DNA of 64,000 nucleotides, taken from Synechococcus sp. KORDI-100. Its GTDB lineage: Bacteria; Cyanobacteriota; Cyanobacteriia; PCC-6307; Cyanobiaceae. A program made the position numbers and the translations under genes. The notes under the pieces are model-generated. The model had not been told where the DNA came from and ran no database searches. It was given only the letters and a program-made list of their open reading frames with translations. Positions 8,982 through 27,429 of the stretch are shown in pieces (within the stretch, counting starts at the first letter, position 1; the number at the start of each line of letters is the position of its first letter). Location: assembly GCF_000737535.1 (NCBI RefSeq), contig NZ_CP006269.1, positions 248,001-312,000 on the forward strand, written 5' to 3'.

Positions 8982-10195
8982 TTTGTATCAGGAATTGTGT
9001 TGGAAAATAAGCTTTTCAAGTTTTTCCGAGAAGAAACTAAGAAGTCTTTCTCGCCGTTTAAAACAACTGATGCAGGGGGATATTTTATAAATGACATAGA
9101 TTGAGATTCACAATATGCTCCAACTGAGCCAATCTGGAAAATGTCATTCATATTGGGGGGTTGTAAAGCTACCTGTTCTGCAAGGCAATCAGATCCCATG
9201 CACAGCGGTCCGAAAATATCGAATTTGTCCTCATTAACTCGGACATTTCGATTATTACAGTTTTCAGAGATATTTCTTATTGGGTGCACTCGATATTGAA
9301 TCGAAGGCAAGATATTCTTGCCAGCGTCTATTATTATTCTATTTTTTTCTATACTTACTATGCTCGAAAGTAGAAAAACTGACTCATCTACTAGTGCTCG
9401 GCCAGGCTCAAGAAAAAGTCTACATTTAAACTTTTCAAGATATGGCTGTAATGCTGTACAGATAATTTCTGCATACTCTTCGATCTTAGGTACTTTCCAG
9501 TCCTCAGCTTTATAATTATTAAGTCGTGCCGACTCCGTAGGAAAACCACCACCTAAATTTAGGTATTTTAGTGAGATTGGTAATGACATGGCCACCGATA
9601 ACATTTGATTAGCAAATTGTTTATATTTATTCGTATCCAATATTGATGTTCCGGCGTGAATATGTAAACCAATTAGATTAATATAATCGGATTTATCTAT
9701 ATGCTTTAAGGCTGTCATCCAATTTTCACTATTAGTGTCAAACCCAAATCTTTTCCATGACTCATTGTCTGGTCTTATTCTTAGTGCAATTTCGCAGCTT
9801 TTATCTAGCTCGTTGGTCTTTTTTAAAATACGGCTCAACTCATCCAAATTATCTACCTGTATTATGTGCCCTCGTTGTATACATTGGCCCAGTTCATCTG
9901 AAGTCTTGGCAGGTCCATTTACAATGATCTTACCTGTAATTCCTAGCATTTCAAGCAAATCAATTTCAAATCCACTAATTATTTCAGGTGGAAATCCATT
10001 TTCGTTCAGGGTTTTTACTATCCATGGATTATAGTTTGTCTTTACTGAGTAATTTACAGTTGTCTTTCGCCAATGTTTTGTAAAACAATTTCTAAACGCG
10101 AGAGAATTTTCAATTAACTTTGCTTGATCGATACAAAAAAGAGGCGATCCATAGTCAGCCAACAAAGCTCTAGCGCGATCATAAGTTATATTCAC
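8978..10195 (-). CDS. Diaminopimelate-decarboxylase-like PLP enzyme (LysA fold type III)
   Basis: A 405-residue alanine-racemase/LysA-fold enzyme. PLP lysine Lys52 lies in VNYSVKTNYNPWIVKTL. Further family motifs are GLHIHAGTSI, LNLGGGFPTES, FLEPGRALVDESV and GPLCMGSDCLAE, whose CxxSD matches the catalytic Cys region of diaminopimelate decarboxylases. It starts at GTG 10195, overlaps pseI by 4 bp and the ATP-grasp gene by 17 bp, so the three are co-transcribed. A lysine-biosynthesis role is unlikely here. I infer that it makes an amine or amino acid used to decorate the nonulosonate; the true substrate is open. Confidence 0.82.
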   Translation of the reverse strand: MNITYDRARALLADYGSPLFCIDQAKLIENSLAFRNCFTKHWRKTTVNYSVKTNYNPWIVKTLNENGFPPEIISGFEIDLLEMLGITGKIIVNGPAKTSDELGQCIQRGHIIQVDNLDELSRILKKTNELDKSCEIALRIRPDNESWKRFGFDTNSENWMTALKHIDKSDYINLIGLHIHAGTSILDTNKYKQFANQMLSVAMSLPISLKYLNLGGGFPTESARLNNYKAEDWKVPKIEEYAEIICTALQPYLEKFKCRLFLEPGRALVDESVFLLSSIVSIEKNRIIIDAGKNILPSIQYRVHPIRNISENCNNRNVRVNEDKFDIFGPLCMGSDCLAEQVALQPPNMNDIFQIGSVGAYCESQSMSFIKYPPASVVLNGEKDFLVSSRKNLKSLFSNTIPDTK

Positions 10196-11222
10196 AGATC
10201 TCTTTGGAAACCCTCTTTATTATAGCACCCTCGTTTGCTATCGGTAAATTAAAGTTTGGCTTATTATTTACAATATTGATCAATTCTCCGATGATATCAA
10301 CTGAAAATGCATATGAAAATGCGAGCGCAGCAGATGGTCGTGGATTAACCTCATATATTTTCGGTTTGCCCTCATTATCTTTTGCACATTCAATATTTAT
10401 CATCCCGCTTACTTTGTACTTCTCAATGAATGAATTAATCAAATTTCTAATCTTTATGTCATCTACAATTTTGGCTTCGACAATCGCTCCGAAATTAGGT
10501 TTCAATCTTTCCTGTATTAGCGAGTATAAAACCCTTCCTTCGTAGCAGAGAACATCAATGTTATAATCCTTACCCGGGTAATATGGCATGCCAATAAAAT
10601 CTAGTTCTTTCCATTCTATGTTCATCCTTATCAGCATTTCAAGTGAAATGCGATTATTGGCCAGTCCAAGTAATGTTACTTGAGAGTCTGAATTTGCATC
10701 TACTAAATAAACTCCTCTTGAACCAGAAGCACGCGAAGGCTTGATGATAAACATTCTGGATGGGTATCCATACAACTTTGATGCTCTAATTAATGCTTTG
10801 TTCGATTCTATTAATACATGTTTATCTTTCGTGGCACAATTAAGTAGCCAATTATCGAAAAATCTATGCTTTGAACTGCATAACTCGATAAACGAATGAC
10901 TAGGCAGCAAGCATTTACAGTTTAGTCTTGATAGTTGATTTTTCATTTCACTAGTGGTTAATGCATAAGCCTCAACATCTGATAAAATAAGTAGATAATC
11001 AATCTTTTCTATACTAACAATTCTTAGAATTTCGGATGAGTATTGCTCTGGCTTTTCATGAGCGAATTGAACCGGATACCTTTTTTCAAGAAGGTTAGAA
11101 TCAATAGGACTCAATTTTGCATCGAATCCAATGAATCGATAATGCGTATTTTCCCGACTTAAATTTACTAGAATAGAGTCAATTATATAACTCGAACAAC
11201 AAGATATGCCAATTGTAATCAT
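10179..11222 (-). CDS. ATP-grasp ligase (carbamoyl-phosphate-synthase-large-chain-like)
   Basis: A 347-residue ATP-grasp protein. It begins MITIGISCCSSYIIDSILVN, an N-terminal Rossmann-like pre-ATP-grasp domain. The ATP-binding part has FIIKPSRASGSRGVYLVDA at about residues 155-173, DYNIDVLCYEGRVLYSLIQER and the metal-binding segment MINIECAKDNEGKPKIYEVNPRPS near residue 290. Such enzymes join a carboxylate to an amine using ATP. Next to a PLP decarboxylase and PseI it may attach an amino acid or amine to the sugar. It is probably the first gene of this minus-strand unit; 119 bases separate it from the dioxygenase upstream. Confidence 0.8.
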   Translation of the reverse strand: MITIGISCCSSYIIDSILVNLSRENTHYRFIGFDAKLSPIDSNLLEKRYPVQFAHEKPEQYSSEILRIVSIEKIDYLLILSDVEAYALTTSEMKNQLSRLNCKCLLPSHSFIELCSSKHRFFDNWLLNCATKDKHVLIESNKALIRASKLYGYPSRMFIIKPSRASGSRGVYLVDANSDSQVTLLGLANNRISLEMLIRMNIEWKELDFIGMPYYPGKDYNIDVLCYEGRVLYSLIQERLKPNFGAIVEAKIVDDIKIRNLINSFIEKYKVSGMINIECAKDNEGKPKIYEVNPRPSAALAFSYAFSVDIIGELINIVNNKPNFNLPIANEGAIIKRVSKEICEYNL

Positions 11223-14212: not shown

Positions 14213-15187
14213 CTAGTTATCAAGCCTTTTTGTCGCTTGATAGTAGCTCTTCATCATATTGAACTGCTTTTGTGTTAATGTCCCATTTCTTGCCGAATTT
14301 AGCATGATTAAGCACCACTTTAGTGCTATTAGTGGCTTGATATCGTAATAGCGCTCTACCCATGAATCTCTAATCTTCGAATAAAAATATTTGCATAGAT
14401 ACTGTATCAGCTTTGATTCTTCGTTTTTATTAAAAATATATTTTGGTTGGAGAACCCAGTCAGCAGCAAACTTGCTTAGGTCGTCTAGTCCCGCATATTC
14501 AAAATCTATAAAATACAGGCAATGATTATTTGCTAGAGTATTGTGTATGCCTACATCTGATGGGGATACAATTTGGTTCGTATGAATGTCGTTCCAATGG
14601 CTTAAATTCTTTATGCGCTTTATTAACTTGCAATTTATCTGTTCGTAATCTGGTTGCAAGATCTGTTCAACCCATTCTATTACATCCTCTTTTAATGAAT
14701 AGCTTGGGCAATTATTTTGGATGTACATTATGCGACGATTTATTGATTGGCTTATGCTATGCGTTGATCTGCATGATTCAGATGCAAACTGTAATCTTGG
14801 TTTTTTTTGAAATAAGTTTGTTTTGTTGATATCACTTATAAAAGAAGTAATTTGCATGAGGCTTTGATCATTGATTTTATTTAGTCTCTCGCCTTTGATC
14901 CAGCTTAATAAAGACCATCCATTTTGAATGTCTGAAGAGTGCAGTATTGGTGTTGTTTCTAAGTTTAGGCTTTTAGTATACTTTAAGAAGTTAACCTCAG
15001 TTAAGCACCTGTTTCTTGCATCTCCATTTCCAGGTAGTTGATACAGCTTTAAGGCGTACTCTGTATCGTTTTTGTCTCTAATGTGATATACCGCACTATT
15101 GATACCGCCTTCGACTTTAGAAATGGATGATACTTCTATTCCCTTTCTTGCTAATTTATGTATTGCTTGTGAAAGTCTAGAATTCAT
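14213..15187 (-). CDS. APH/choline-kinase-like phosphotransferase
   Basis: A 324-residue aminoglycoside-phosphotransferase-fold kinase. The N-lobe has ISKVEGGINSAVYHIRD and YALKLYQLPG with the ATP-binding lysine. The catalytic loop reads SPSDVGIHNTLANN at about residues 211-224, with the catalytic Asp and the metal-binding Asn in DxxxxN spacing; the usual preceding His is Ser. The metal-binding Asp is in YFIDFEYAGLDDLSKFAADW. It overlaps the HAD gene by 4 bp (ATGA) and is last in the operon running down from 21 kb. It may phosphorylate a free sugar or sugar alcohol. Confidence 0.77.
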   Translation of the reverse strand: MNSRLSQAIHKLARKGIEVSSISKVEGGINSAVYHIRDKNDTEYALKLYQLPGNGDARNRCLTEVNFLKYTKSLNLETTPILHSSDIQNGWSLLSWIKGERLNKINDQSLMQITSFISDINKTNLFQKKPRLQFASESCRSTHSISQSINRRIMYIQNNCPSYSLKEDVIEWVEQILQPDYEQINCKLIKRIKNLSHWNDIHTNQIVSPSDVGIHNTLANNHCLYFIDFEYAGLDDLSKFAADWVLQPKYIFNKNEESKLIQYLCKYFYSKIRDSWVERYYDIKPLIALKWCLIMLNSARNGTLTQKQFNMMKSYYQATKRLDN

Positions 15188-15795
15188 TTTGTTTTTAAGT
15201 CTAGGTCCTTTATCGTTTGCCAGTGTGTTAATTTATAGCTTTCATGGTATGCGTTATTGCACCTCTTTTTTGGGTCGTATAGGTATTTTTTAATGCTGTT
15301 CGGTAACATGTTTAAAATCTCAGGCAAATCATCGATATAATGCGTGCATTCAAGTTCTATTATTTTGCTTATTTTCGCTCCCTTGCTTTCCTCGAAGTAA
15401 ACATTCTTTTTTTTCAAGCTCAGTCCATCTGCCGAAAAGAATTTGTATTTTTCAAGCCAACTCCAGGCTGCTCGGTGCAGATCGAATGCAGGTCCTTTGT
15501 AGGGGGTTCGGGTTTTATGACTTACGATCACCATGGGTATCTCTCGCTGATGTATTTCATCGAGTGCTTCCAGCATGCCTTCAGCTGGCTCTGCTTCCAG
15601 AATCCTCAAGCCATACACTTCTCCTTGCAGAAGGGTGAATTGTTCGTCTCTTCCTTGGCTGCGGAGGTAATCGCGGATTGCTGTTTTGTCTGCAGGTACA
15701 GATTTTTCGATTAAGCCTTTTTCAACTGCCAGCTGGTGAAAGAGCTTGTCGTAGCGAACCAGGGTGTTATCAAAATCAAGGCCTAGGAGCGTCAT
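15184..15795 (-). CDS. HAD-superfamily phosphatase-like protein
   Basis: A 203-residue HAD-fold protein. Motif I is LGLDFDNTLVRYD at about residues 4-16 (nucleophile Asp in DxDxT form), motif II is MVIVSHKT near residue 90, and motif IV is HYIDDLPEIL near residue 153. It lacks the DRDGT signature of GmhB-type heptose bisphosphatases, so I do not assign it to that step. It overlaps both neighbours by 4 bp. A phosphatase paired with an adjacent kinase suggests handling of sugar phosphates in this operon. Confidence 0.75.
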   Translation of the reverse strand: MTLLGLDFDNTLVRYDKLFHQLAVEKGLIEKSVPADKTAIRDYLRSQGRDEQFTLLQGEVYGLRILEAEPAEGMLEALDEIHQREIPMVIVSHKTRTPYKGPAFDLHRAAWSWLEKYKFFSADGLSLKKKNVYFEESKGAKISKIIELECTHYIDDLPEILNMLPNSIKKYLYDPKKRCNNAYHESYKLTHWQTIKDLDLKTK

Positions 15796-16709
15796 AGCGA
15801 TTGCACCAGGTTGGCAATGGCAGAGGCATTCAGACCCTCACTTTCGCGTACATAGTTCTGATCTCCCAGCTGATGCACAAAGTGATCGCCAATACCCATG
15901 CGTTTGATTTCAATGGTGTTTATTTGCTGCTCAGAGAGCCACTCCAGCAGTGCTGAACCCAGTCCGCCGGTTTGATGGTGCTCTTCCAGGCTGATCCAAT
16001 GGCTGTAGCCCGCAGTCACACACTGATGCAGGAATTGGTGATCCAATGGTTTGATGCTGCCCATGCTGGCGATGGCCAGTTGGATGCCTTTCTGCTCCAG
16101 CAAGGTGCTGGCTTGCAGGGCTTCTGAAAGAATCGGACCGATGCCGAGTAGCAGAATTTTATTGCCTTGCTTCAGGAGATTTGCCTTGCCGATCCCCAGA
16201 GGTGCATGCTCAGCAAGTAGATCAGGTTCTCCTTTCTTCCCGATGCGGATGTAGGTGGGTTGGCCCTCGGTAATAGCTTGGCGTAATTGAGCCTCTAGCT
16301 CCAGTGAATCAGCTGGTGCACAGACCTGTAGGTTGGGAATGCTGCGCAGGATGGCTAGATCTTCGAGGGAATGATGGGTAGCACCGAGTTCGGCATACGA
16401 CAGGCCTGAGCCGGTTCCCACGATCACCACGGGTGCCTCGTGGTAGGCCACACCCGTGCGGATCTGCTCCAGACAGCGGGTGGTGGTGAACGGGGTGATG
16501 GTGTACACCACAGGCCGTAGGCCGCTCAGCGCCATGCCAGCGGCCATGCTCATCATGTTCGCTTCTGCGATCCCGCAATTGAGGAAGCGTGTTGGCGCCA
16601 CCTCCTTGTAGCGATCAAACATCCGGTTGCCGATATCACCCGAGAGCAGGCAAACATCGCTGCTTTCTTGGACGAGTTCTTTCATTACTCGGGCGAAGGC
16701 ATTTCTCAA
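15792..16709 (-). CDS. Transketolase, C-terminal (pyrimidine-binding) subunit
   Basis: A 305-residue two-domain protein equal to the second half of transketolase or DXS: a pyrimidine-binding domain (LLSGDIGNRMFD, RFLNCGIAEANMMSMAAGMAL with the activating Glu, TITPFTTTRCLEQIR) and a C-terminal transketolase domain (ILLLGIGPILSEALQAS, EEHHQTGGLGSALLEWL). It works as a heterodimer with the next entry. The apparent start is TTG at 16709, which overlaps the partner stop (TTGA); a later ATG would remove conserved residues. In this operon it would transfer a two-carbon ketol unit in sugar building, not run the Calvin cycle. Confidence 0.88.
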   Translation of the reverse strand: MRNAFARVMKELVQESSDVCLLSGDIGNRMFDRYKEVAPTRFLNCGIAEANMMSMAAGMALSGLRPVVYTITPFTTTRCLEQIRTGVAYHEAPVVIVGTGSGLSYAELGATHHSLEDLAILRSIPNLQVCAPADSLELEAQLRQAITEGQPTYIRIGKKGEPDLLAEHAPLGIGKANLLKQGNKILLLGIGPILSEALQASTLLEQKGIQLAIASMGSIKPLDHQFLHQCVTAGYSHWISLEEHHQTGGLGSALLEWLSEQQINTIEIKRMGIGDHFVHQLGDQNYVRESEGLNASAIANLVQSL

Positions 16710-17548
16710 AGCTGCACCTCCTGGAGCTCAGCCAGTGCTGCAGCCAGCTCGTCTGGGTTGGGGGTGCGGTAATGCCAGTTGTTGTCGTCTTCCATGAATG
16801 ACACCCCTTTGCCTTTAATTGTGTGGGCCACGATCACACTGGGCTTGCTGGTTTCTGTTCGTGCGGCAGCGAGTGCCTGGCCAATCGCTGCTAAATCATG
16901 GCCATCAATCTCCTGGGCATACCAGCCGAAGGCTTCCCATTTGGCCGCTAACGGTTCAAGGGCCATCACCTCTTGGCTGCGGTCTGTGGCCTGCCACTTG
17001 TTGTAATCCACAATGGCTGTGAGGTTATGGACGTGCTGGCCTGCCGCAAGCATGGCAGCTTCCCAAATGCTGCCTTCATTGCATTCCCCATCACTCAACA
17101 GGGCGTAGCAACGGCTGTCGATGCCTTGGATGCGTTGGGCAATTGCCATGCCAATGGCCATCGGTAGACCGTGACCCAGAGAACCGGTGGCTGCCTCCAC
17201 GCCTGGGATGTAGCCAGGTTTGGGGGGGTGCTCATGAAACACACTCCCAGGTTTTCCAAATTCAGCCAGGCGCTCAATTTCAAAAAAACCCCGTTCCGCC
17301 AGCACCTGGAACAGCACGGGTGCTCCATGGCCTTTGCTCAGCACAAAGCGGTCACGATTTGGGGCTTCAGGCTCCTGGGGGTCAATGCGCAGTTCTTGCC
17401 AATAGAGCGTTGTGAGTAATTCAACACAGGAGAGGCAAGAGCCCAGATGGGGAATACGGGCACGGGCTGAGGTTTCAATTGTGCGTCGCCGGATGGTGAG
17501 GGCTATCCGGTTCAGCGCCGCAGTGGACTCAGGAGCTGTGGTGGCCAT
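16706..17548 (-). CDS. Transketolase, N-terminal (ThDP-binding) subunit
   Basis: A 280-residue thiamine-diphosphate-binding half of a split transketolase. Visible features: AHLG-like RIPHLGSCLSCVELLTTLY, RFVLSKGHGAPVLFQVLAERG, ATGSLGHGLPMAIGMAIAQR, and the ThDP motif LLSDGECNEGSIWEAAMLA ending in IVDYNKWQ (GDGxxNEG...N in variant form, with Ser for the first Gly). Chloroplast-type and Calvin-cycle transketolases are single chains of about 670 residues; split forms are typical of accessory sugar pathways. Start ATG 17548 lies 4 bases after the SDR gene. GC-rich like its neighbours. Confidence 0.88.
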   Translation of the reverse strand: MATTAPESTAALNRIALTIRRRTIETSARARIPHLGSCLSCVELLTTLYWQELRIDPQEPEAPNRDRFVLSKGHGAPVLFQVLAERGFFEIERLAEFGKPGSVFHEHPPKPGYIPGVEAATGSLGHGLPMAIGMAIAQRIQGIDSRCYALLSDGECNEGSIWEAAMLAAGQHVHNLTAIVDYNKWQATDRSQEVMALEPLAAKWEAFGWYAQEIDGHDLAAIGQALAAARTETSKPSVIVAHTIKGKGVSFMEDDNNWHYRTPNPDELAAALAELQEVQL

Positions 17549-17552
17549 GGCG

Positions 17553-18503
17553 TTAGCGGTTGGCCTCCAGTTGCAGATGTTTCATCCATTTCACCGTGTA
17601 GCAATTCTCTCCATCGGGAAGTTCACTATTTCTGTAAGCAGTGGTGATCTCATCAATGGCGCTTTGAACACTGAATTGGGGCTGAAAACCAGTGGCCAGC
17701 AATTTGCTGGAATCTTGGCGGTAGGACCGTGGGTCGTTGGATTCGCTCACCATGATCTCGGCGCCAGTGCCCTGCTGCACCCGTTGGGCAATCTCAAGGA
17801 TTTTCAGATTTTCAAAACCGGCGTTGTAGCAACCGGAGGGCAGCTCTGGATGGGCGAGAAAGTGGAGATACACATTGGCCATATCCTTAATATGGATGTT
17901 GGGCCTGGTTTGGTCTCCGCCGAACACTGTGATTTTTCCATTCTTGAGTCCCTGGTAAGTGAGCATGTTGACGCTCACATCCAGGCGCATGCGGGGTGAT
18001 AAACCACACACGGTGGCTGGGCGGATGCAGTGCACCTGCATCTGATCTGCGTAGGAGAGGAACACCCGTTCCGCCACCATCTTGGTTTTGTTGTAAACCG
18101 AGATCGGTACCAGGGTGAGGTCTTCGGTGACCTGGGGCTCATCCTTCACGCCATACACACTGCCGGAGCTGGCGAAGATGAAGTGCTTTACGCTAGCGCG
18201 AACAGCTCGATCAGCTAGCTGCTGCCCTGCCAGCACATTCACCTCCCAACTCAAGGTGGGGTTGAGCTCCACCGCTGGATCATTGGCAATGTTCGCCAGA
18301 TGAATGATGGCCTCCACGCCATCGAGCGGGATGGCAGCGGTGTCACGCACATCCAGCTTGAGGTTGGTGAGCTGGGGGTGCTCCGGCAGGGCATTGCCAA
18401 ACCACTGGGTGTCGATGCTGATCACGCTGTGACCATCAGCCAGCAGCAGGGGGATCAGCACGGAACCCTTGTAGCCGCAGCCACCAGTAACGAGCAGTTT
18501 CAT
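17553..18503 (-). CDS. NAD-dependent epimerase/dehydratase (extended SDR)
   Basis: A 316-residue extended SDR. The dinucleotide-binding motif is LLVTGGCGYKGSVLIPLLLA at residues 3-22, with Lys in place of the usual Phe-Ile. The catalytic region shows FASSGSVYGVKDEP and SVYNKTKMVAERV with YxxxK. HIKDMANVYLHFL is the typical C-terminal 'H..D.A' motif. It probably acts on a nucleotide-activated sugar made by the kinase/nucleotidyltransferase two genes upstream. It overlaps the next SDR by 4 bp. The reaction (epimerisation, dehydration or reduction) cannot be fixed. Confidence 0.84.
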   Translation of the reverse strand: MKLLVTGGCGYKGSVLIPLLLADGHSVISIDTQWFGNALPEHPQLTNLKLDVRDTAAIPLDGVEAIIHLANIANDPAVELNPTLSWEVNVLAGQQLADRAVRASVKHFIFASSGSVYGVKDEPQVTEDLTLVPISVYNKTKMVAERVFLSYADQMQVHCIRPATVCGLSPRMRLDVSVNMLTYQGLKNGKITVFGGDQTRPNIHIKDMANVYLHFLAHPELPSGCYNAGFENLKILEIAQRVQQGTGAEIMVSESNDPRSYRQDSSKLLATGFQPQFSVQSAIDEITTAYRNSELPDGENCYTVKWMKHLQLEANR

Positions 18504-19522
18504 GACTTGTGCTGGTAACTCCAGGGCAGGGTCTTGAGGGTGGGCAGATTGGCATCCACCCAGGCCAGTGTCTCCTGAAGGCCCTGCTGCAGGCTGATTT
18601 GATCAGACCAGCCATGCACCTGGCGCATGGCTGAACTCTCGAGCAGGTAACTCTGATCCTTGCCGAGGCGTTCCTCGCTGCTCTGCACCAGTTCGTTGAA
18701 GTTGGCGCCAGCAAGGTGGCAGATCTGCTCCACCAGCTTCTTGATGCTGCAGCTCTCCTGGGTGGAGAGGTGCCATGTGCTGCCCGGTTCCCCTTCGGAG
18801 GCCAGCTGCAAGGTGGCGCGCACCACATCCTTGATATGGATGAAGGCACGCATGGAATGGCCGCCGCCATGGAGCTGCATGGGCTTACCGGTGCGGGCGC
18901 TCAGCAATGTGCGGGGAATGATGCGATAGAGCTGTTGGCCGGGGCCATACACATTGGCCGCGCGGGTGAACACCACCGGGAACCCATAGGCCTGATGGAA
19001 GCTGTGCAGGTGCAGATCACAGGCTGCCCGGCTTACGGCATAAGGGGTGCTGGGCGCGAAGTGGTTGTGCTCTTTGATCCAGCCACCATCGGTGCTGCCA
19101 TAAACCTCAGGCGTGGTGACATGTACGTATTTCTGCAGAAAGGGTTGCTGCCGCAGGGCATCGTGCAGGGCCACTTGGGCCACCACATTGGTGCGGTACC
19201 AGTGGGTGGGATTGAGCCAGCTTTCGGCAACCATGCCCTGGGCGGCGAAGTTCACCACGAGCTCGGGTTGCACCCGATTGATTAAGACCAACAGGGCGTC
19301 CAGTTGGCTGTTGAGATCAATGGCTTCAAAGGTGAAATTCTCCGCAGTGGCCAGGGGCGTGCCTCCACTTGCTTGCGGCCAGCGGTAAGGAAGGAAAACG
19401 GGATTGGGCTCTTCCGAGCGGCTCACCCCCCATACCGGATGGCCGGCGGCGAGGGCTTCAGCAACAAAGTGGCTGCCGCTGAAGCTGTTGGAACCGATGA
19501 CAAGGACTTTTTGCTTTGTCAT
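18500..19522 (-). CDS. GDP-mannose-4,6-dehydratase-like extended SDR
   Basis: A 340-residue extended SDR. The cofactor motif is VLVIGSNSFSGSHFVAEAL (GxxxFxG), then VNFAAQGMVAESWLNPTHWY, HVTTPEVYGSTDGGW, TPYAVSRAACDLHL (YxxxR/K region: Tyr-Ala-Val-Ser-Arg, so Arg stands where Lys is usual), FTRAANVYGPGQQLYRIIPR and FIHIKDVVRATL. It resembles dTDP-glucose and GDP-mannose 4,6-dehydratases. ATGA overlaps join it to both neighbours. The Lys-to-Arg change should be confirmed by alignment because the Ser and Tyr also seem shifted. Confidence 0.82.
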   Translation of the reverse strand: MTKQKVLVIGSNSFSGSHFVAEALAAGHPVWGVSRSEEPNPVFLPYRWPQASGGTPLATAENFTFEAIDLNSQLDALLVLINRVQPELVVNFAAQGMVAESWLNPTHWYRTNVVAQVALHDALRQQPFLQKYVHVTTPEVYGSTDGGWIKEHNHFAPSTPYAVSRAACDLHLHSFHQAYGFPVVFTRAANVYGPGQQLYRIIPRTLLSARTGKPMQLHGGGHSMRAFIHIKDVVRATLQLASEGEPGSTWHLSTQESCSIKKLVEQICHLAGANFNELVQSSEERLGKDQSYLLESSAMRQVHGWSDQISLQQGLQETLAWVDANLPTLKTLPWSYQHKS

Positions 19523-21006
19523 GGCTGCAAAACTTCCTCCAGGCTGCTACGCAAAGCATTTGCGCTGATTGGCGTGTTGCCCATGGTTTCAACGGCAAGG
19601 GCCGCCATGCAGCAGGCCAAAGCTGCACTAGGCATCATTGCCTGCCCACTTGCGAGTGCGGTGGCGAATAGAGCTAAAAGTGAATCACCAGCTCCTGCTA
19701 CATCTAGAGGATTCACGGACAAGGCAGGAAAGGCTTGGTTGCTAACCAAGCCATCGGGGTCACGGTCGTAAGCAATAAACCCTTCTGGACCAAGTTTCAT
19801 TACGAGGCGTTCACTTCCAGTGATCTGAAGCAGGCTCTGGCTCAGTTGTTCGAGACCGCTGTCTTTATCTTGTAAAGCAAAACGGGCTTCTCTTTCATTA
19901 GGGCAGAGCAGAGAAAAATTTTTGAACCGTGTCACTGAACCTACTTGACTGCTGCATTGTAGGTCTCCAAACGTTAGAAGATTATATTTTCTCGACAATT
20001 TTTGCACTGTTTTTAAGATATTAGGGGTGACTACGCCGTAAACAAAGTCTGAGATAATTATACCATCCGCATAACAGGCAAGCTCTTCTAATTTATCAAT
20101 GATTTCTTTTTCCACCTTCACATCTAGGTTCTTGTCCTCTAATCGACTCACGCGAAAAAGTTTTTGGTTTTCAACAACATATCTCTTTTTAAAAGTTGTT
20201 GGTCGTGTTGGATCTTGTACTATCCCGTTGCCTATGTCTTGATCCGAAAGAGTCTTAGTGACTGTTTCGGCATTTGCGTCATTGCCAACAACTGATACTA
20301 AATCACAATGTGCACCCAAAGCACTGATATGAGCTGCCACTACAGCTGCTCCACCAACAAAATCTTTTTTCTCTAATTCACGAACTACCACAACCGGTGC
20401 TTCAGCACTCATTCCTATAGCTTCACATGCTGCATATTGGTCGACAATTGTATCACCAACGACAATCAATCTCGCTTGCTTCCATGAATCTATTGAATTA
20501 GATAGTTGAGATACACTGATATTTTGTCGCCGACATGCATTTCGAAATAGCTCATGTCTCTGTTGTTTAAGTTCCCGTTCTGATGCACTAAGGAGATCTG
20601 CAGTGGCGTAATGAATCTCACCCGCATGGAATTGAATTTCCCCACCCTGCCTTTTTATAATATCAATCGTTTCATGAATTAAAGGCTTATTTTTGTACTC
20701 ATTGCCAAGAACTAAAATAGACGGTTGTAGACTTTTAATAGCGACATCTAACTCATCGCCTTCAAGAAGAAGAATTTTGTCAGCAATACCAAGAAGATTC
20801 AGCGCTTCCGCCCGTTCATCTTGGTTAAATGTATAATCTGCTTCAGTACTATCACCAATTAGTGCAATTATAAATTCTTCGCCTAGATTTCGAGCATGTT
20901 TAAGATACCGAATATGGCCCGGATGAATTGTATTAAAATGTCCGAACCCTAGGATACATTTTGGAGATGCAGAGACTTCACTCAGCGTAAAAAGATTATA
21001 TGTCAT
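19519..21006 (-). CDS. Bifunctional sugar nucleotidyltransferase/PfkB kinase (HldE-like, reversed domain order)
   Basis: A 495-residue fusion. Residues 1 to about 150 are a cytidylyltransferase-fold domain: FGHFNTIHPGHIRYLKHAR (HxGH) and VLGNEYKNKPLI. Residues about 165-495 are a PfkB/ribokinase domain: LIVVGDTIVDQYAACE, DFVGGAAVVAAHISALGAHCDLV, LLCPNEREARFA and NPLDVAGAGDSLLALFA with the catalytic Asp. Canonical HldE has the kinase first and the nucleotidyltransferase second; here the order is reversed. It would phosphorylate a sugar and couple it to a nucleotide. It is the first gene of the tightly overlapping unit reaching down to 14.2 kb. Confidence 0.85.
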   Translation of the reverse strand: MTYNLFTLSEVSASPKCILGFGHFNTIHPGHIRYLKHARNLGEEFIIALIGDSTEADYTFNQDERAEALNLLGIADKILLLEGDELDVAIKSLQPSILVLGNEYKNKPLIHETIDIIKRQGGEIQFHAGEIHYATADLLSASERELKQQRHELFRNACRRQNISVSQLSNSIDSWKQARLIVVGDTIVDQYAACEAIGMSAEAPVVVVRELEKKDFVGGAAVVAAHISALGAHCDLVSVVGNDANAETVTKTLSDQDIGNGIVQDPTRPTTFKKRYVVENQKLFRVSRLEDKNLDVKVEKEIIDKLEELACYADGIIISDFVYGVVTPNILKTVQKLSRKYNLLTFGDLQCSSQVGSVTRFKNFSLLCPNEREARFALQDKDSGLEQLSQSLLQITGSERLVMKLGPEGFIAYDRDPDGLVSNQAFPALSVNPLDVAGAGDSLLALFATALASGQAMMPSAALACCMAALAVETMGNTPISANALRSSLEEVLQP

Positions 21007-21145: not shown

Positions 21146-21568
21146 CTAGCTTAAGTGATTTTTTAAATAAGTAAGATGTTCCTGATGGTTCATGTTTGCC
21201 AATGACTCATCAATCAAGATGAGGTTCTCAATTTCTTGTGCTGTTGTAGTGTCGTTCAATATTAAGCCTTCAACAGCAAAATGAAGGTTAATATTATTTG
21301 TCATGCAAAAAGAGTAAACATTACTCCTAATTGACGCGGATAAAGGAAGTTGCCAAACACTAAAAAATACAACATGAGGAAATCCTTCATATAGAGCAGC
21401 CCAAAGTTGACATTGTGATTCTGCCGATAATGCATATTCAGCACGAGAAAGAACAAAAGATAAGCCTAGAGAGTCACAATAACTTTTTATAATTCGATTC
21501 TGAATGTGCTGCGGAGCTCTGTTACCTCGAAATTCTCCACTGGCTATGTAGCCTCTTGCAAATTTCAT
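21146..21568 (-). CDS. Sporadic carbohydrate cluster protein, LIC12192-like (TIGR04323-type)
   Basis: A 140-residue protein of unknown biochemical function. The start MKFARGYIASGEFRGNRAP and the body (QNRIIKSYCDSLGLSF, ALYEGFPHVVFFSVWQLP) match my memory of the small family first named from Leptospira carbohydrate clusters. I chose ATG 21568; the frame is open to a TTG two codons further up. It lies 12 bp after a dioxygenase that belongs to a companion family, which supports both names. No catalytic residue can be proposed from sequence. Confidence 0.68.
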   Translation of the reverse strand: MKFARGYIASGEFRGNRAPQHIQNRIIKSYCDSLGLSFVLSRAEYALSAESQCQLWAALYEGFPHVVFFSVWQLPLSASIRSNVYSFCMTNNINLHFAVEGLILNDTTTAQEIENLILIDESLANMNHQEHLTYLKNHLS

Positions 21569-21580
21569 CGTCAAATGTGT

Positions 21581-22393
21581 CTAGTTTGCAGGATGTTTGT
21601 AATCGATACCAACTCTAGTACAAGTTTTTAGAGTAATCGGCATAAAATACTCACCTAGTTTTTTGTCCCAATACGGCGTATGAAGACCCTTGAACCTACA
21701 GTTAAGTGACCAGTGGGAACTATTTTCTTGGTTCAAAGCAAAGCCATGAGGTATAGATTGATCAAAGGCTAGTACGTCACCATATTTAATCGTGATCCAC
21801 GTAAGATTATCTTTTACTTTTTCGTACATATCGTCGGTATTTAGTTTTAGCAGACTCTTATCTTCACGAAGTTTTAGGTAGGTGTCTTTTTTCAATATAT
21901 ATAGACACATGCTGTTGGTACAGTTAACCAGTGGCGTCCATATATTTAACTCGTAAGGTGATACTCCATTCCAAGTATCTGCATGCATCGGTAGAACATC
22001 ATTTTTGTTGTGAGGAAAATTAATCGATAATCCTATACGTTTTTGCATTGCAAGCTCGTTTCCACAGAGTTGATAAATGATTTTTTGCGCTGCAAGATAA
22101 TAATGATGATTAAACTTAATGTTTCTGCTAATATTATTAATTACTGATAGCCGAAGATCGTTGCTTTCAGGGCCATCCATGAATGTGTGGAACTCTTCCA
22201 GATGATATTGTTTTGAGTTTACGGCTATTTTTTTCTTAAAAATAAATTCATTGGCTGCGTCATATATGAATTTCTTAACGATATCAAGATGCTTTTGATT
22301 GGCTTTCTCAATTACATATCCATCAGACATAAATCTGCTACATAAGGCCTTTTCCTCGTCTGACCTAAAGTCCCACAAGCCGAAATCATCCAT
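21581..22393 (-). CDS. Sporadic carbohydrate cluster 2OG-Fe(II) oxygenase
   Basis: A 270-residue protein if it starts at ATG 22393 (MDDFGLWDFRSDEEKA); the frame continues 23 codons to a TTG but that stretch looks non-conserved. The iron site is MHADTWNGVSPYELNIWTP (HxD) plus DQSIPHGFALNQENSSHWSLNCRF (distal His and the Arg that would bind 2-oxoglutarate). KRIGLSINFPHNKND precedes the HxD. The family travels with the small LIC12192-like protein and presumably hydroxylates or desaturates a sugar intermediate. It lies 12 bp upstream of that gene in the same direction. Confidence 0.75.
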   Translation of the reverse strand: MDDFGLWDFRSDEEKALCSRFMSDGYVIEKANQKHLDIVKKFIYDAANEFIFKKKIAVNSKQYHLEEFHTFMDGPESNDLRLSVINNISRNIKFNHHYYLAAQKIIYQLCGNELAMQKRIGLSINFPHNKNDVLPMHADTWNGVSPYELNIWTPLVNCTNSMCLYILKKDTYLKLREDKSLLKLNTDDMYEKVKDNLTWITIKYGDVLAFDQSIPHGFALNQENSSHWSLNCRFKGLHTPYWDKKLGEYFMPITLKTCTRVGIDYKHPAN

Positions 22394-22462
22394 CAAGTAA
22401 AACCTAACTCTAGCTAAGATAAATAATACAAGCAAGGATTTAACAGATTCTATGTTTGCCAA

Positions 22463-22695: not shown

Positions 22696-23757
22696 TTATC
22701 TGTTTCTGTTCAGCCAAAGCTTCATGGTCGGATCAGTGATTTCATTTCTGTCTAAATCAGCAAACAAGAGAGATGATCTACTCAAAGTATATTTGTGCAT
22801 TAATTCTCTTACGATTTCGGCGCAAAGTATAGGTTTATTGCCGATTGCAGTCTCGGCTGCGAGAACAATACCAGCAGCACCCATTTCAAGTGTACTGACT
22901 ATGTCATTGAGTTCTGCTCTAGTAGGAAGTTCTCCATCTATTAAGCTTTCCAGCACATTGGTGGCGACGTAACATGGAGTATCAAGCTTCCTCGCTGTTT
23001 GAATAATTCCTCTTTGCGCAAAAGGTATATCTAAAATACTCAGCTCTCTCGACAAATCACCCCTGTCTATCAAAATGCCATCTGACTCGCTACAAATAGC
23101 GTGTAATGCATGAATACTTGCTCGACTTTCTATTTTGCTAACTATAGTTGCCTCGTTAACTATTTTTCTTGCAAATTGTATTGCCTGTACTGACTTGCAA
23201 AAAGATATAAAAATATCTCGAATTCCGAGATCATTTGCAATTTTTAGTGCACTTATATCTTTGGGCGTAAAATCATCTAACTCAATTTCACGATTTAAAA
23301 TATCAACACCTTTATTTTTGCCAGCAGATCCTGCTGAAATACACTCACAAAAATATCCTTTATTTACCTTTTCTTTAAGCACTACTACTAGACCATTGAA
23401 GTCTATCCTTATTACATCACCAACCATTAGCTTTGAGATGACGTTTTCTGGAGATAGTGATATTGATTGTAGTTTTTTGTTATCCTGAAGGCCTGTTGAT
23501 TCCCCAATTAATACAATCTCTCCTACTTTGACATTAACATCATTTATATCGGGGCACAAATTAGTTCTAATTTGTGCCCCTTCTGTGTCAAGGGCTATCT
23601 TAATACCAAGTTTCTGGCCAATTTCATAGTATTTTTGTATATCTTTAAGCGCTGCGTGAGACATGTTGATTCTAAAAATATCTACACCCGCTTTTTTTAA
23701 ATCATTGAGCTTCTCCGGTGCTTCACAGGCTGGTCCAAGAGTGCAAATTATTTTCAC
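22696..23757 (-). CDS. Pyruvate-kinase-like protein lacking the C-terminal domain
   Basis: A 353-residue protein, well short of the roughly 470 or more of housekeeping pyruvate kinase. It keeps the A barrel and B domain: IICTLGPACEAPEKL, GVDIFRINMSHA, KIALDTEGAQIRTNL, the signature IVSKIESRASIHAL with the catalytic Lys, SDGILIDRGDLSREL, YVATNVLESL, LPTRAELNDI and LAAETAIGNKP. The C-terminal allosteric domain is absent, and MARGDLG, ATQMLESM and GETAxGxYP are each altered. It starts at GTG 23757. I think it is a pathway-specific paralogue that uses phosphoenolpyruvate or a similar enol phosphate. Confidence 0.8.
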   Translation of the reverse strand: MKIICTLGPACEAPEKLNDLKKAGVDIFRINMSHAALKDIQKYYEIGQKLGIKIALDTEGAQIRTNLCPDINDVNVKVGEIVLIGESTGLQDNKKLQSISLSPENVISKLMVGDVIRIDFNGLVVVLKEKVNKGYFCECISAGSAGKNKGVDILNREIELDDFTPKDISALKIANDLGIRDIFISFCKSVQAIQFARKIVNEATIVSKIESRASIHALHAICSESDGILIDRGDLSRELSILDIPFAQRGIIQTARKLDTPCYVATNVLESLIDGELPTRAELNDIVSTLEMGAAGIVLAAETAIGNKPILCAEIVRELMHKYTLSRSSLLFADLDRNEITDPTMKLWLNRNR

Positions 23758-23841
23758 AAATTACGCTTGCAGTTTATTCATGTTATTATATCAGAATACC
23801 TGGCCTTGAATTTATCAGACTTTGCGTCCTTCAATCCTTTT

Positions 23842-25203
23842 ATGAACAATGAAATGAAACATCAGAAATTTAATATGTTTGCTTTAGTTGTTGGTCCGGG
23901 AGCAGGAAGCAAATACCTTCATACATTACTTGATTCTCACCCCGAAATGTATGCAATACCAGGATATTGCATGATGTATTTTTACCCCCACTATTTCGAT
24001 ATTTACAAGTCTGTCAGGAGCAATTTTGATTTAATTAATATTCTCTTGGATCGGATTCCGCCAATCTACGATACAAGAATTATGCCTGGGAGTGAGACAC
24101 TTGACCAATTAGGCGAAGATGGTAACGAATACATGCATGTTGAAAAAAGATATTTTTTACAAAAGGTACTATCTTATCTACCCTCTTCTATTTTAGATAT
24201 TGCTTCATCAGCAGATGTTCTCTTGGCGCTACATAAGGCACATTTTGATTTTTTTTCAACGCTTATTTATAATAACAAGATGCCTAAAAATATTTTGTAC
24301 CATATTCACTGTGATGCTTATCTTCCGTTCTTGATGAAAGATTTTCCTGATTCAAAAATTATATCTATGATACGAATACCCTCAGTAAATATTTCAAGAA
24401 GACTTCGCTCAAGCATGCTGGAAGCAGACATTGTCAAATTAAATGCCCTGGATTATTATTTTGTAAAATCATCTGTCATCTCTAAAATATCATGCTATCA
24501 CTTTCGAGCTTTAAATTATTATGCAAAAGTAAGCACTGAAATATTTTTTGTAGATTACCAAGCGCTTGTGAATGACCAAATTAATATAGTCAATTCGCTG
24601 CTTAAACAATTAGGTTTACATGGCTTCTCTGATTCATGTCTCACTCCCACATTTGCTGGTAAGCCACATAAGCTCCGTTTCTATGAAAAACATCGTAATA
24701 TGACAATTGAGACTATAAATTCAAATAGTAAGTCTATTTCTTCAAAACCACGACTCATTTTAGACGCCATATATTCAGCGAAACTAGAAGGCCACTCAAT
24801 ACCCTTCATTATCAAGTTTAAATATATCCTGGAAACTTTTATGCTTAGAGATTATGAGAAAGCTGAATTAGCTCAGTTCTTTTCTTTATCTTCAATTTTT
24901 AGTTACTTCAATAATATTTCTCGTGTTGTGGCTTTATCTCCTCGCCAGTATGATTTTCTCCATGGCTATTTTCGTTTCAAATGGTCTACTCCACAGTCTT
25001 ATATTAAGATGGTTAATTTTTTGAATAAGCCACACTTAAACTCTGCCCTTTCAAATTTCCAAAAAACCAATTTAATCCTGTTTTATATTGCTATTTACTT
25101 TGTGTCATGTTTTGCAATTTTCCTATCTCTTTTTAAACGACGATACTATCAATTAATGCTACTATCGCTTGATCCAATTCAAAATGGTAGGCTAATCGAC
25201 TAA
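23842..25203 (+). CDS. Sulfotransferase-like protein with a C-terminal membrane segment
   Basis: About 453 residues from ATG 23842 (another ATG lies at 23854; the frame is open upstream to a TTG at 23767). The 5'-phosphosulfate loop is ALVVGPGAGSKYLHTLLDSHPEM, a PAPS-sulfotransferase pattern, and SKIISMIRIPSVNISRRL resembles the 3'-phosphate-binding segment. A hydrophobic run LILFYIAIYFVSCFAIFLSLF near the C-terminus suggests one membrane anchor. It would sulfate a glycan or protein. It diverges from the pyruvate-kinase-like gene and ends 4 bases into the convergent reductase gene. Confidence 0.66.
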   Translation: MNNEMKHQKFNMFALVVGPGAGSKYLHTLLDSHPEMYAIPGYCMMYFYPHYFDIYKSVRSNFDLINILLDRIPPIYDTRIMPGSETLDQLGEDGNEYMHVEKRYFLQKVLSYLPSSILDIASSADVLLALHKAHFDFFSTLIYNNKMPKNILYHIHCDAYLPFLMKDFPDSKIISMIRIPSVNISRRLRSSMLEADIVKLNALDYYFVKSSVISKISCYHFRALNYYAKVSTEIFFVDYQALVNDQINIVNSLLKQLGLHGFSDSCLTPTFAGKPHKLRFYEKHRNMTIETINSNSKSISSKPRLILDAIYSAKLEGHSIPFIIKFKYILETFMLRDYEKAELAQFFSLSSIFSYFNNISRVVALSPRQYDFLHGYFRFKWSTPQSYIKMVNFLNKPHLNSALSNFQKTNLILFYIAIYFVSCFAIFLSLFKRRYYQLMLLSLDPIQNGRLID

Positions 25204-26048
25204 TATTCGCTTTTGTCTGCATAAAGTATATTTTCAAATTGTGTTTGAGCTATATTGAGTTTTTGGAATAATTTCGCTGAATTCATCGATGTGTCATGTG
25301 GTACATCTAATTCAATGCCGAGCTCTTTTCTACTACAGCCCTTTATTTTACAATTAAGTTTGTGTATTTCCTTAAGTGCATGCATATACTCCACTCGTGT
25401 TTGATGGTTTGGTCCTCCACAGTTAAATATGCCTCCTTCAGCTTTGGCACTCAATTTGTCTAAAACTTTGTATAAATCACCAGCGTAAAGCGGCGAAAAA
25501 TATTGATCAGATGCCGCCACGATTTCCTTATTCTTCTTGATTAACTCCAATGTGTTGGTGTAAAAATTGTTGTTCAACTTTGTTGAGCATACTCTTGCTA
25601 TTCTTAGAACTGAATTGCTAGAAGACTGATCCATTACATTTATTTCACCCTTTCTTTTCTGTCTACCATACAAAGTTATAGGTAATCCCTTTAGCGAGTC
25701 ACTCTCTTTTGCAAGATGAATCTCACCACTATATACATAGTCAGTAGAGATATATATTAATCTTTTGTTGGCCCGTTTGCATGCTTTCGCGACATCCAAT
25801 GGAATGACTGTATTTACATACTGCGATAACTCTTTGTTTCTATTGCATTCTTTGTCGCTAGAAATAGCGCTTAATAAGCAAACACTTTCTGCATCTACCG
25901 TTGAGAATATTCTATTAAGTGTGTCAACTTCAAAATCTGGCAAAGTAATAATTGCATCTTCTGATCTGGAAGCGCTAATAAATAATCCTTTATCATCATG
26001 CGATGATATTAGTTTCCCGACATTTCCATTAATACCAATGACGAGCAT
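25200..26048 (-). CDS. RmlD-like nucleotide-sugar reductase (SDR)
   Basis: A 282-residue SDR. The N-terminus MLVIGINGNVGKLISS is a shortened GxxGxxG cofactor motif. LIYISTDYVYSGEIHL and TLYGRQKRKGEINV give the catalytic Thr/Tyr/Lys pattern of RmlD, and VLRIARVCS and GGIFNCGGPNHQTRVEYMH complete it. RmlD reduces a 4-keto nucleotide sugar. It is transcribed alone, diverging from the C-methyltransferase operon. The 80-base divergent gap contains TATACT at about 26091-26096, a possible -10 for the plus-strand unit. Confidence 0.78.
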   Translation of the reverse strand: MLVIGINGNVGKLISSHDDKGLFISASRSEDAIITLPDFEVDTLNRIFSTVDAESVCLLSAISSDKECNRNKELSQYVNTVIPLDVAKACKRANKRLIYISTDYVYSGEIHLAKESDSLKGLPITLYGRQKRKGEINVMDQSSSNSVLRIARVCSTKLNNNFYTNTLELIKKNKEIVAASDQYFSPLYAGDLYKVLDKLSAKAEGGIFNCGGPNHQTRVEYMHALKEIHKLNCKIKGCSRKELGIELDVPHDTSMNSAKLFQKLNIAQTQFENILYADKSEY

Positions 26049-26127
26049 GATCTGTTCGTTTTTTAGATTTTAACCTGTTCTTTCTAGTATACTTTATTTC
26101 TATTTGATATATTCATTTTATCTTTTC

Positions 26128-27429
26128 ATGGGTTCCTGCTATAATATTTATATTAGCTATTATGTTGTGCATCACAAGCGTAATGTTTGCAGATTGTGCG
26201 GTAGCGCAGATGTTAGCTGCATAATTCCCTTGAAGTCTGTACCAATTGGCGAACATTATAATTCTTCTCCTGACAGAGATGCACAACGTTACCCTCTAGA
26301 TATATATCAATGCAACCATTGTGATGCCGTTCAAACAATGGACGAGATTGATCCTGACTTCTTGTGGAAAGACTATACATATTTTTCAGGCCAGACTGAC
26401 AAAATTGTCGAACATTTTGAAGAGTTTAGCACAGACTTGATTATGAAGTATTTTCCTACTGATTGTATGCCTTACGTTCTAGACATAGGCAGTAATGATG
26501 GCTCTCTGTTGTTAGAATTTAAAAAACTGGGATGTAAAATTCAAGGAATAGACCCAGCTCAAACAGTAGTTTCAGCCGCATTACAGAAAGGAGTAGAGAC
26601 ATGTCTTGGCTTATTCAACCTAGAATCTTCTGAGCGATTTTTCGGTGATCGCAAGTTTGATTTGATAACCGCTTTTAATGTATTTGCGCATTCTGCGGAT
26701 ATGATTTCAATGGGTGCCGCAGTTGCTAAATGCCTTAGCAAAAATGGTCTATTTTGTTTTGAAGTACAGTATTTGACAGACATCATTGATAAGAAAATTC
26801 TAGGTACATTTTTTCACGAGCATATGATCCATTACTCTTACTATAGCGCGCAAAATTTCCTGTCTCAGTTTGGTCTTGGAATAATCGACTATGAACGTAA
26901 TAATATACAAAATGGTAGTATTATCTTTCATGTGGCTCATAAAAACTCTGACATGGCCTCTAGGCATACTAATCACGAAAAGCTTGGTAAGTTAGCTCTG
27001 GAAGAAACTAATTTCTTTGATGATCAGCGTTTATGGATTGATACTTTCAATACATCTCTCGTTGAAACTAAAGCAAGCTTTAGGAATTTTCTAGCTGTTA
27101 ACAATATTGAAACTTTGCCAGCTTACGGTGCAGCTAGATCAGGTCCAACATTAGCCATTCAATTTGGATTCGAAAACTATCTCTCATCTTTCTTTGATGA
27201 TCATCTATCAAAAGTCAATAAGTTTTCTCCGTTAAAAGGTTTACCAGTCTTTCCAACTTCACAGCTCGACGCTAACTTGCATCCTTTTGTCGTTATAACG
27301 GCTTATATTCATTATAAAAATATAATTCGTAAGCATCATGACTTCCTTGTTTCGGGAGGAATATTTCTATTAGTGTGGCCCAATTTTGAAATCATTACCA
27401 TCGACAACTATTCTGATTTCTTGGCATGA
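26128..27429 (+). CDS. SAM-dependent sugar C-methyltransferase (zinc-finger type)
   Basis: About 433 residues from ATG 26128; GTG at 26167 is an equally plausible start because the conserved zinc finger follows directly. Order of domains: CRLCGS and IYQCNHCDAVQ (putative zinc-binding Cys pairs), a class I methyltransferase domain with VLDIGSNDGSLLLEFKKLGC and GIDPAQTVV, and the C-terminal domain with AYGAARSGPTLAIQFG and FVVITAYIHYKNII. This is the TylCIII/NovU-like architecture that C-methylates keto sugars. It overlaps the next gene by 4 bp, starting a three-gene unit. Confidence 0.85.
   Translation: MGSCYNIYISYYVVHHKRNVCRLCGSADVSCIIPLKSVPIGEHYNSSPDRDAQRYPLDIYQCNHCDAVQTMDEIDPDFLWKDYTYFSGQTDKIVEHFEEFSTDLIMKYFPTDCMPYVLDIGSNDGSLLLEFKKLGCKIQGIDPAQTVVSAALQKGVETCLGLFNLESSERFFGDRKFDLITAFNVFAHSADMISMGAAVAKCLSKNGLFCFEVQYLTDIIDKKILGTFFHEHMIHYSYYSAQNFLSQFGLGIIDYERNNIQNGSIIFHVAHKNSDMASRHTNHEKLGKLALEETNFFDDQRLWIDTFNTSLVETKASFRNFLAVNNIETLPAYGAARSGPTLAIQFGFENYLSSFFDDHLSKVNKFSPLKGLPVFPTSQLDANLHPFVVITAYIHYKNIIRKHHDFLVSGGIFLLVWPNFEIITIDNYSDFLA

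Follow-up and report, generated by a model that had tools for sequence, protein, structure and literature searches.

The model we propose concerns an operon on the minus strand of Synechococcus sp. KORDI-100, whose compact half of seven genes lies at positions 14,213 to 21,006 of the window, that is, of the whole 64,000-nucleotide stretch analysed (contig NZ_CP006269.1, positions 248,001 to 312,000). We consider it rather probable that this operon adds a two-carbon (C2) branch to a nucleoside diphosphate (NDP)-4-keto-heptose, yielding a nine-carbon branched nucleotide sugar for a surface glycan. The model is drawn from the gene content, the gene order, an exchange of enzymes in one slot and residue changes, all of them observed directly.

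In this model, sedoheptulose 7-phosphate would be the substrate of a GmhA-like isomerase (SIS), C1 would then be phosphorylated by the kinase half of a nucleotidyltransferase-PfkB kinase fusion (NTK), and a nucleotidyltransferase would activate the sugar. One of two short-chain dehydrogenases/reductases (SDRs), SDR2, would oxidise C4 and pass the hydride to 2-oxoglutarate (2OG), and the resulting L-2-hydroxyglutarate would be re-oxidised by LhgO of the operon. A split transketolase (TK, subunits TK-N and TK-C) would then put a two-carbon ketol unit on the ketone at C4, so that this carbon becomes a tertiary alcohol and the added unit carries a ketone of its own. Tailoring of the branch would fall to the methyltransferase MT29, together with an alcohol dehydrogenase in most cyanobacterial relatives or with a 2OG-oxygenase/SpoChoClust_1 pair in the window. 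A haloacid dehalogenase (HAD)-family phosphatase and an APH-fold kinase would serve the transketolase step; our guess is that HAD strips the phosphate from the ketose donor and that APH re-phosphorylates the leftover aldose, the donor being itself a guess. Each chemical step, like the position C4 and the donor, is what we infer from the genes. An earlier note on this DNA had proposed a route in which a nucleotide sugar, once made, is oxidised and gains two carbons; this outline is supported by the likeness of SDR2 to Cj1427 and by the exchange described below.

For the branching role the genes provide good evidence. The split transketolase and a pair of E1 subunits replace each other repeatedly behind one kinase-SDR core. 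Three Prochlorococcus loci (L027, L028 and L032) share the operon as far as SDR2, after which E1 alpha and E1 beta replace TK-N, TK-C, HAD and APH, while SIS, a second nucleotidyltransferase (NTP) and NTK remain. In the alphaproteobacteria, L040 reads NTK-SDR2-DegT-DegT-E1 alpha-E1 beta, and L042 and L043 read NTK-SDR2-DegT-DegT-(HAD-APH fused)-TK-N-TK-C. The NTK loci were obtained by scanning genome contigs with the NTK alignment (best 80 of 223), and their genes were called with profiles built from those same loci. TK-N stands directly after SDR2 in the window and in 12 other loci, and E1 in 7, these being the first genes after the SDRs among 41 loci with SDR2 on the NTK strand; L067 is counted although its TK has a short second subunit, and L030 although its E1 alpha and beta are fused (3007-5103). 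Although filed as a Blastopirellula bin, L030 has an NTK that falls with those of the window's genus. The other contents of the slot are DegT-DegT-E1 (2 loci), DegT-DegT-HAD/APH-TK-N (2) and differing genes in the remaining 18.

A tree of NTK was built from 31 rows, the window and 30 of the 85 distinct NTK loci, hand-picked for their sugar-operon context, with the twice-fetched contigs L012, L014, L015, L017 and L018 dropped. It requires 10 changes of the TK label, against a mean of 10.5 for shuffled labels, and supported branches force at least 6 of them; the E1 label changes 11 times, with at least 8 changes forced. Neither label is more clustered than shuffled ones. MT29 accompanies 16 of 17 TK rows versus 5 of 11 E1 rows of the tree, and the zinc alcohol dehydrogenase (MDR) or the oxygenase 14 of 17 versus 4 of 11. 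The E1 proteins of L020, L027, L032, L034, L040 and L059 match the E1 alpha/beta models of pyruvate dehydrogenase (PDH), 9 of 10 of them under the curated cut-off, and seven genes lying downstream of five E1 pairs included none of E2 type. E1-type enzymes known as aKADH2 make C2 branches on keto sugars (passages of PMC12247030). The branch is later reduced, methylated or transaminated in the cases covered by the passages (PMC12247030, PMC4753412), which fits the dehydrogenase, methyltransferase and DegT genes of these loci.

Other enzymes dependent on thiamine diphosphate (ThDP) are found at some of these loci. In L027, positions 16176-18026 encode a further type (TPP_enzyme N/M/C) after E1 beta and a methyltransferase; YerE-like branching enzymes belong to the TPP_enzyme N/M/C superfamily. 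A two-subunit transketolase of another kind, whose second subunit is short, is seen in the epsilonproteobacterial loci L047, L049, L050, L051 and L053-L055; these were rejected as carriers of the same pathway, given the second subunit of 169 aa with no family match in L050, and the radical SAM proteins near the TK pair of L051, which also has a GalE-like SDR close by. The 13 short-type TK loci were set apart, only L071 entering the tree and only L067 the count of the TK-N slot.

As for the transketolase itself, its catalysis looks intact and its recognition of phosphate altered, to judge from the aligned residues. Positions were mapped in human numbering from alignments with 6yaj and 6yak, and we assume for them the roles of the human transketolase residues, catalytic and sugar-phosphate pocket alike; the R474 column and the Ser345 column of the genome's own transketolase align unreliably and were not used. 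The 41 TK pairs come from 36 distinct contigs, five contigs fetched twice being still counted. All 41 conserve Asp155, Asn185, His258 and Glu366, and His37 and His77 are conserved save in L048, which is truncated, and L064, where one His is Gln. Ser345 is replaced in 41 of 41, His416 by Gly in 40 and Asp424 by Leu or Ala in 40, the L021 pair being the exception to both. The window's pair carries R, G and L at these three positions, which is not the canonical pocket; the solved split transketolase 6yaj, used as control, keeps Ser345, His416 and Asp424. The exceptional pair, a second split transketolase of pDCAR1 (L021 2689-4457), is the only one of the 41 to retain both His416 and Asp424; a reading of the second TK-N of pDCAR1 in a wrong overlapping frame was left out of the comparison with the catabolic enzymes below.

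Furthermore, the genome, searched as a single contig of 2.789 Mb, holds a separate full-length transketolase (TIGR00232, 971.7 bits), and the operon subunits, at 158.6 and 67.5 bits against a cut-off of 682.25, fall outside that canonical family. With regard to membership of the C2-branching systems, a gene for a ThDP enzyme adjoins SDR2, the likely keto-sugar former, and the catalytic ThDP residues are kept.

That the phosphatase and the kinase belong to the transketolase step, a tie already suggested in the earlier note, is supported by co-occurrence. Among the 85 distinct NTK loci, whose counts of HAD, TK and E1 were not hand-picked, HAD is present in 17, with a transketolase in every one. 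These loci comprise 23 with a full-length TK pair (HAD in 16), 13 with a short-type pair (HAD in 1), 19 with E1, of which L061 also has TK (HAD in 0 of the 18 with E1 alone), and 31 with neither (HAD in 0). In the tree rows, HAD accompanies 15 of 17 TK versus 0 of 11 E1, and APH 14 of 17 versus 0 of 11. Phylogenetically independent pairs never show HAD on the opposite side, the six pairs being too few for significance (median p 0.0625). In 13 Prochlorococcus genomes (0.9 to 1.8 Mb, some apparently incomplete), HAD and the operon-type TK are both present in 7 and both absent in 6; beyond Prochlorococcus, HAD is found in 7 of 8 TK-locus genomes and, as a weak, partial match, in 1 of 4 E1-locus genomes. 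The genomes of these two counts (13 and 12) were chosen by hand.

HAD has no match in Pfam or NCBIfam. The window's protein and 16 relatives all share the HAD motif residues D7, D9, N10, T11, S92, H93, K141, D155 and D156; its AlphaFold model (pLDDT 93.4) resembles deoxyribonucleotidases and other HAD phosphatases and proteins. In APH, the motifs SxSDxGxxN and DFE are invariant in 17 rows, and the model (pLDDT 86.5) resembles choline kinases, LicA, aminoglycoside and macrolide kinases and homoserine kinase. These structural matches leave the substrates of both enzymes unfixed. A role of HAD as a substitute for the heptose-bisphosphate phosphatase GmhB is unlikely: L027, L028 and L032 keep SIS and NTK, and HAD was not found in their genomes. 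HAD and APH are fused in L038:12470-14107, L042:12944-14524, L043:14642-16252 and L067:1690-3348. In the genome of L031, what looked like an internal stop in HAD is simply where the gene ends.

The heptose identity of the sugar is held with moderate confidence. NTK carries its nucleotidyltransferase before its PfkB kinase, the reverse of HldE, and scores 199.8 bits with rfaE_dom_I and 53.7 with rfaE_dom_II, both under cut-off; its best PDB match is 4e84, the kinase domain of HldE. It is not HldE by membership (reversed order, 174.5 bits against a cut-off of 521) and would combine a sugar 7-phosphate kinase with a sugar-1-phosphate nucleotidyltransferase. The reversed HldE does not serve as a mark of the pathway, as had been supposed, since 31 of the 85 distinct NTK loci have neither TK nor E1 in the fetched DNA. 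SDR2 scores 115.5 bits with the PDB entries 6vo6/6vo8, the runner-up reaching 76.4; we take these entries to be Campylobacter Cj1427, a heptose C4-dehydrogenase. The motif SPR[ML]RLD occurs in 35 of 46 SDR2 rows and also in 6vo6. LhgO-like genes (at least 100 bits) are present in 18 of 41 SDR2 loci versus 0 of 45 others, related loci being treated as independent in the Fisher test, and at 250 bits in 14 of 41 versus 0 of 45, the loci being again related. The neighbouring LhgO hints that SDR2 may, like Cj1427, oxidise an NDP-heptose and hand the hydride to 2-oxoglutarate; Cj1427 produces L-2-hydroxyglutarate, and the GDP form of NDP-4-keto-heptose has been made enzymatically (passages of PMC10680097). 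SDR1 resembles dTDP-glucose 4,6-dehydratase, but its motifs are TPEVYG and YxxxR, and the YxxxK lysine is replaced by Arg, His or Gln in 29 of 31 SDR1 rows, the window included. Of the oxidation by both SDRs that had been suggested, the part of SDR2, which resembles an oxidase, stands, and that of SDR1, without the usual active-site lysine, does not; we are unsure of the role of SDR1. A surface glycan that varies between strains is the probable destination of the product, because the lipopolysaccharide (LPS) of the two marine Synechococcus strains studied, WH8102 and CC9311, is described as being without heptose (passages of PMC4515613).

The seven genes and their domains, as first called, are real: all are open reading frames on the minus strand, with Pfam domains or, in the case of HAD, with motifs and a model. 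Each of the seven genes shares a 4-bp overlap with at least one neighbour; four of these overlaps read ATGA and a fifth TTGA, and the sixth junction, from SDR2 to TK-N, is a 4-bp gap. The search for the seven-gene set that the earlier note had advised found the full order in 6 of the 8 relatives fetched at length, the exceptions being L014, without APH, and L017, with HAD displaced. The arrangement is confirmed as real and not due to chance, because the full order recurs in these relatives, which are eight of the nine other HAD-bearing genomes of the family; of the 201 genomes of the family 10 carry a HAD relative, and of the 34 of the genus 3 have a match to SDR2 at E 1e-60, both counts including the genome analysed here.

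The operon is, however, larger than the seven genes of the earlier note, and the boundary 14213-21006 is too narrow: isomerase, second nucleotidyltransferase, LhgO and methyltransferase also belong to it (Table 1). The usual order 5' of NTK in the relatives is LhgO-like gene, PF00483 nucleotidyltransferase, GmhA-like isomerase, MT29 and MDR, one gene of this set being absent or past the fetched end in some of them. In the window, LhgO, NTP, SIS and MT29 lie at 29294-32536, about 6.8 kb away from the seven-gene half; the intervening stretch, at 22.7-29.3 kb, splits the operon here and not in G112 of the same genus. SpoChoClust_1 and SpoChoClust_2 occupy the place that MDR has in the other cyanobacterial relatives, as they do in G112 (L013). 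LhgO and SIS are the genome's only matches to NF008726 and TIGR00441, respectively, and all 15 PDB matches of SIS are phosphoheptose isomerases or DiaA.

Table 1. Features of the operon and of the stretch that divides it, in window positions.
Feature	Position	Strand	Basis
APH/choline-kinase-fold kinase (predicted)	14213-15187	-	Pfam APH 23.5 bits, weak (cut-off 23.2); motifs; model
HAD-family phosphatase (predicted)	15184-15795	-	HAD motifs; AlphaFold model; co-occurrence with transketolase
TK-C (second transketolase subunit)	15792-16709	-	Transket_pyr 129 bits, Transketolase_C 65.8; best PDB 6yaj
TK-N (ThDP-binding transketolase subunit)	16706-17548	-	Transketolase_N 145 bits; best PDB 6yak (split transketolase)
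SDR2 (putative Cj1427-like NDP-heptose C4-dehydrogenase)	17553-18503	-	Best PDB 6vo6/6vo8
SDR1 (extended SDR)	18500-19522	-	TIGR01181 185 bits (cut-off 365); best PDB 6bi4
NTK (nucleotidyltransferase-PfkB kinase fusion)	19519-21006	-	CTP_transf_like 22-108 and PfkB 178-478 (Pfam)
SpoChoClust_1, LIC12192 family	21146-21574	-	TIGR04323 73.7 bits (cut-off 55)
SpoChoClust_2, 2OG-Fe(II) oxygenase	21581-22462	-	TIGR04324 246.5 bits (cut-off 150)
Non-operon stretch (pyruvate-kinase-like, sulfotransferase, RmlD-like, other genes)	22696-29287	.	Missing here in same-genus G112 (L013)
MT29, class I methyltransferase of the operon	29294-29965	-	Pfam
SIS, GmhA-like phosphoheptose isomerase	29962-30573	-	gmhA TIGR00441 110.5 bits, under cut-off 209
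NTP, PF00483 sugar-1-phosphate nucleotidyltransferase	30588-31307	-	120.1 bits; HddC model 78.1, under cut-off 300
LhgO, L-2-hydroxyglutarate oxidase	31307-32536	-	NF008726 303.7 bits against equivalog cut-off 299, narrow pass

Several observations weigh against the C2-branching model. Five catabolic split transketolases, encoded beside FGGY kinases on plasmids and presumably of the apulose 4-phosphate type, have also lost the residues at 416 and 424, where they have Ser and Leu. Since they have lost both, the changes at these positions are not diagnostic, and the loss of His416 and Asp424 was rejected as proof of a ketone acceptor. The TK-N subunits of the five fetched are 43-48% identical to that of the operon; they sit in sugar-utilisation loci and retain Ser345, unlike the operon enzymes, so that on the present alignments it is only the change at Ser345 that separates the two groups. 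The sugar side has its own difficulties: NTK, SIS, NTP and SDR1 are all under the cut-offs of the heptose and sugar models, no match in the genome exceeds the cut-off of TIGR01656 for GmhB, the one model searched, two nucleotidyltransferases for one sugar are unexplained, and 23 of 41 SDR2 loci have no LhgO in the fetched DNA. Neither are the associations strict. L061 holds both TK and E1, an E1 alpha-like gene of L117 (6618-7583, 235 bits) adjoins the APH of a TK module, and HAD was not called in 7 of the 23 loci with a full-length TK pair, although the genome of L068, one of the seven, contains it. Finally, phosphorylated donors (and dihydroxyacetone) serve Rif15 for its attack on a ketone in assays described without a phosphatase (passages of PMC6002545), which counts against our guess for HAD and APH.

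To these objections must be added the HAD-APH-TK-MT29 modules that lie away from NTK, in L116 (where APH is not adjacent) and L117, which belong to the genomes of L031 and L036, and beside pseB/pseC on pDCAR1 (L102); in L062 the module is present without SDR2 in the fetched stretch. Could these genes be a self-standing module for some other substituent, merely sharing an island with a heptose module? We think this unlikely. The cyanobacterial loci place NTK, SDR1 and SDR2 inside the module, between the MDR or oxygenase pair and TK-N, and E1 takes over the TK slot behind an unchanged core; moreover, the genomes of L116 and L117 also hold NTK and SDR2 (L031, L036), and in L102 the gene beside the module, pseB, is that of a keto-sugar former.

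The transketolase might otherwise make a long ketose phosphate, octulose or similar, which SIS, NTK and HAD would convert into an unbranched higher-sugar nucleotide. Lincosamide octose synthesis is the model for such a route, and isomerase, kinase, phosphatase and nucleotidyltransferase are the usual set for the activation of an aldose. This appears quite improbable, for E1 alpha/beta would yield no ketose phosphate and yet replaces TK with SIS, NTP and NTK retained, HAD tracks TK and not NTK, and the phosphate-binding Ser345 is changed. Very improbable indeed is ordinary heptose or pentose synthesis with standard substrates, by which the earlier note would have let its own reading fall. Its GmhA-like and HldE-like parts speak for it. 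Of the GDP/ADP-heptose set, isomerase, kinase and nucleotidyltransferases are present, each under cut-off, and GmhB has no match over the cut-off of TIGR01656, the one model searched. What has been found so far goes the other way: a canonical full-length transketolase is encoded elsewhere in the genome, no phosphatase passes the TIGR01656 cut-off, the LPS of WH8102 and CC9311 is without heptose as cited above, and the distribution of HAD and SDR2 among family and genus genomes is patchy.

The C2-branching model can be set beside several known systems. In aKADH2 (AviB1/AviB2, Pau11/Pau12, KbDH-alpha/beta) and YerE, as proposed for the operon, a ThDP enzyme adds a unit to a sugar ketone, of two carbons in the case of aKADH2 (passages of PMC12247030 and PMC4753412), and the E1 pairs of the operon's relatives are of the PDH E1 type, as is aKADH2. 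In the passages, the aKADH2 cases concern antibiotic deoxy sugars and YerE concerns LPS, whereas the sugar of the operon is probably a heptose and its split transketolase alternates with E1. The pathway of the Campylobacter jejuni capsule heptose (GmhA, HddA, GmhB, HddC, Cj1427) shares with the operon a GmhA-like isomerase, a nucleotidyltransferase and a Cj1427-like protein, in the operon a putative C4-dehydrogenase that would likewise use 2-oxoglutarate as oxidant. In Campylobacter, epimerisation and reduction of the ketone follow (passages of PMC10680097), whereas in the operon a two-carbon enzyme comes next, and the kinase is of PfkB type and LhgO is present.

The earlier note had treated two-subunit transketolases in glycan loci as established. 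This goes too far: in its passages, a 2025 review describes ketone-accepting split transketolases (13 Streptomyces sequences; miharamycin and amipurimycin) as no more than proposed, with none characterised in vitro, and the sole characterised case that we found is Rif15 of rifamycin, a two-subunit transketolase able to attack a ketone (passages of PMC6002545). These enzymes resemble the one proposed here in acting on a ketone acceptor; they belong to antibiotics of Streptomyces or Amycolatopsis, and the passages tie them to no heptose, HAD or APH. The operon would give ketone-accepting split transketolases a Gram-negative surface-glycan setting and a predicted acceptor, NDP-4-keto-heptose. The natural pairs of strains with the same core beside TK or E1 make the question of the ketone acceptor directly testable. 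From the model one would also expect some marine phototrophs of very high abundance to bear branched nonoses, plausibly as one element of a surface identity that varies, and a sugar dehydrogenase dependent on 2-oxoglutarate to have its recycling loop built in. Much more tentative is the full claim to novelty: a first transketolase acting on a nucleotide-bound keto-heptose to give a C4-branched nine-carbon sugar, with its own phosphatase, an aldose-salvage kinase and LhgO for regeneration of the oxidant, and with a ketol or acetyl branch that strains might switch by swapping cassettes in one slot. No title or abstract among the literature matches listed describes this operon.

The remaining observations concern the operon's surroundings. 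TIGR04323 and TIGR04324, both over cut-off in the window, belong to the NCBIfam sporadic carbohydrate cluster, which is known here from model names alone; our literature search found neither the cluster name nor LIC12192 in any paper. TK-N is matched by 37 phage records, every match being below 60% identity. The G+C content is 55-60% per kb at 16001-20000, 43% and 39% in the adjoining kilobases and 33-38% farther out, so that the TK and SDR genes resemble a higher-GC block flanked by replaced ends. Within the glycan island, positions 22696-23757 encode a pyruvate-kinase-like protein of 353 aa (226.9 bits, cut-off 306). Lastly, positions 7938-11222, with PseI (445.8 bits, cut-off 340), a diaminopimelate-decarboxylase-like protein under cut-off and a neighbouring open reading frame, form a possible separate nonulosonic-acid unit.

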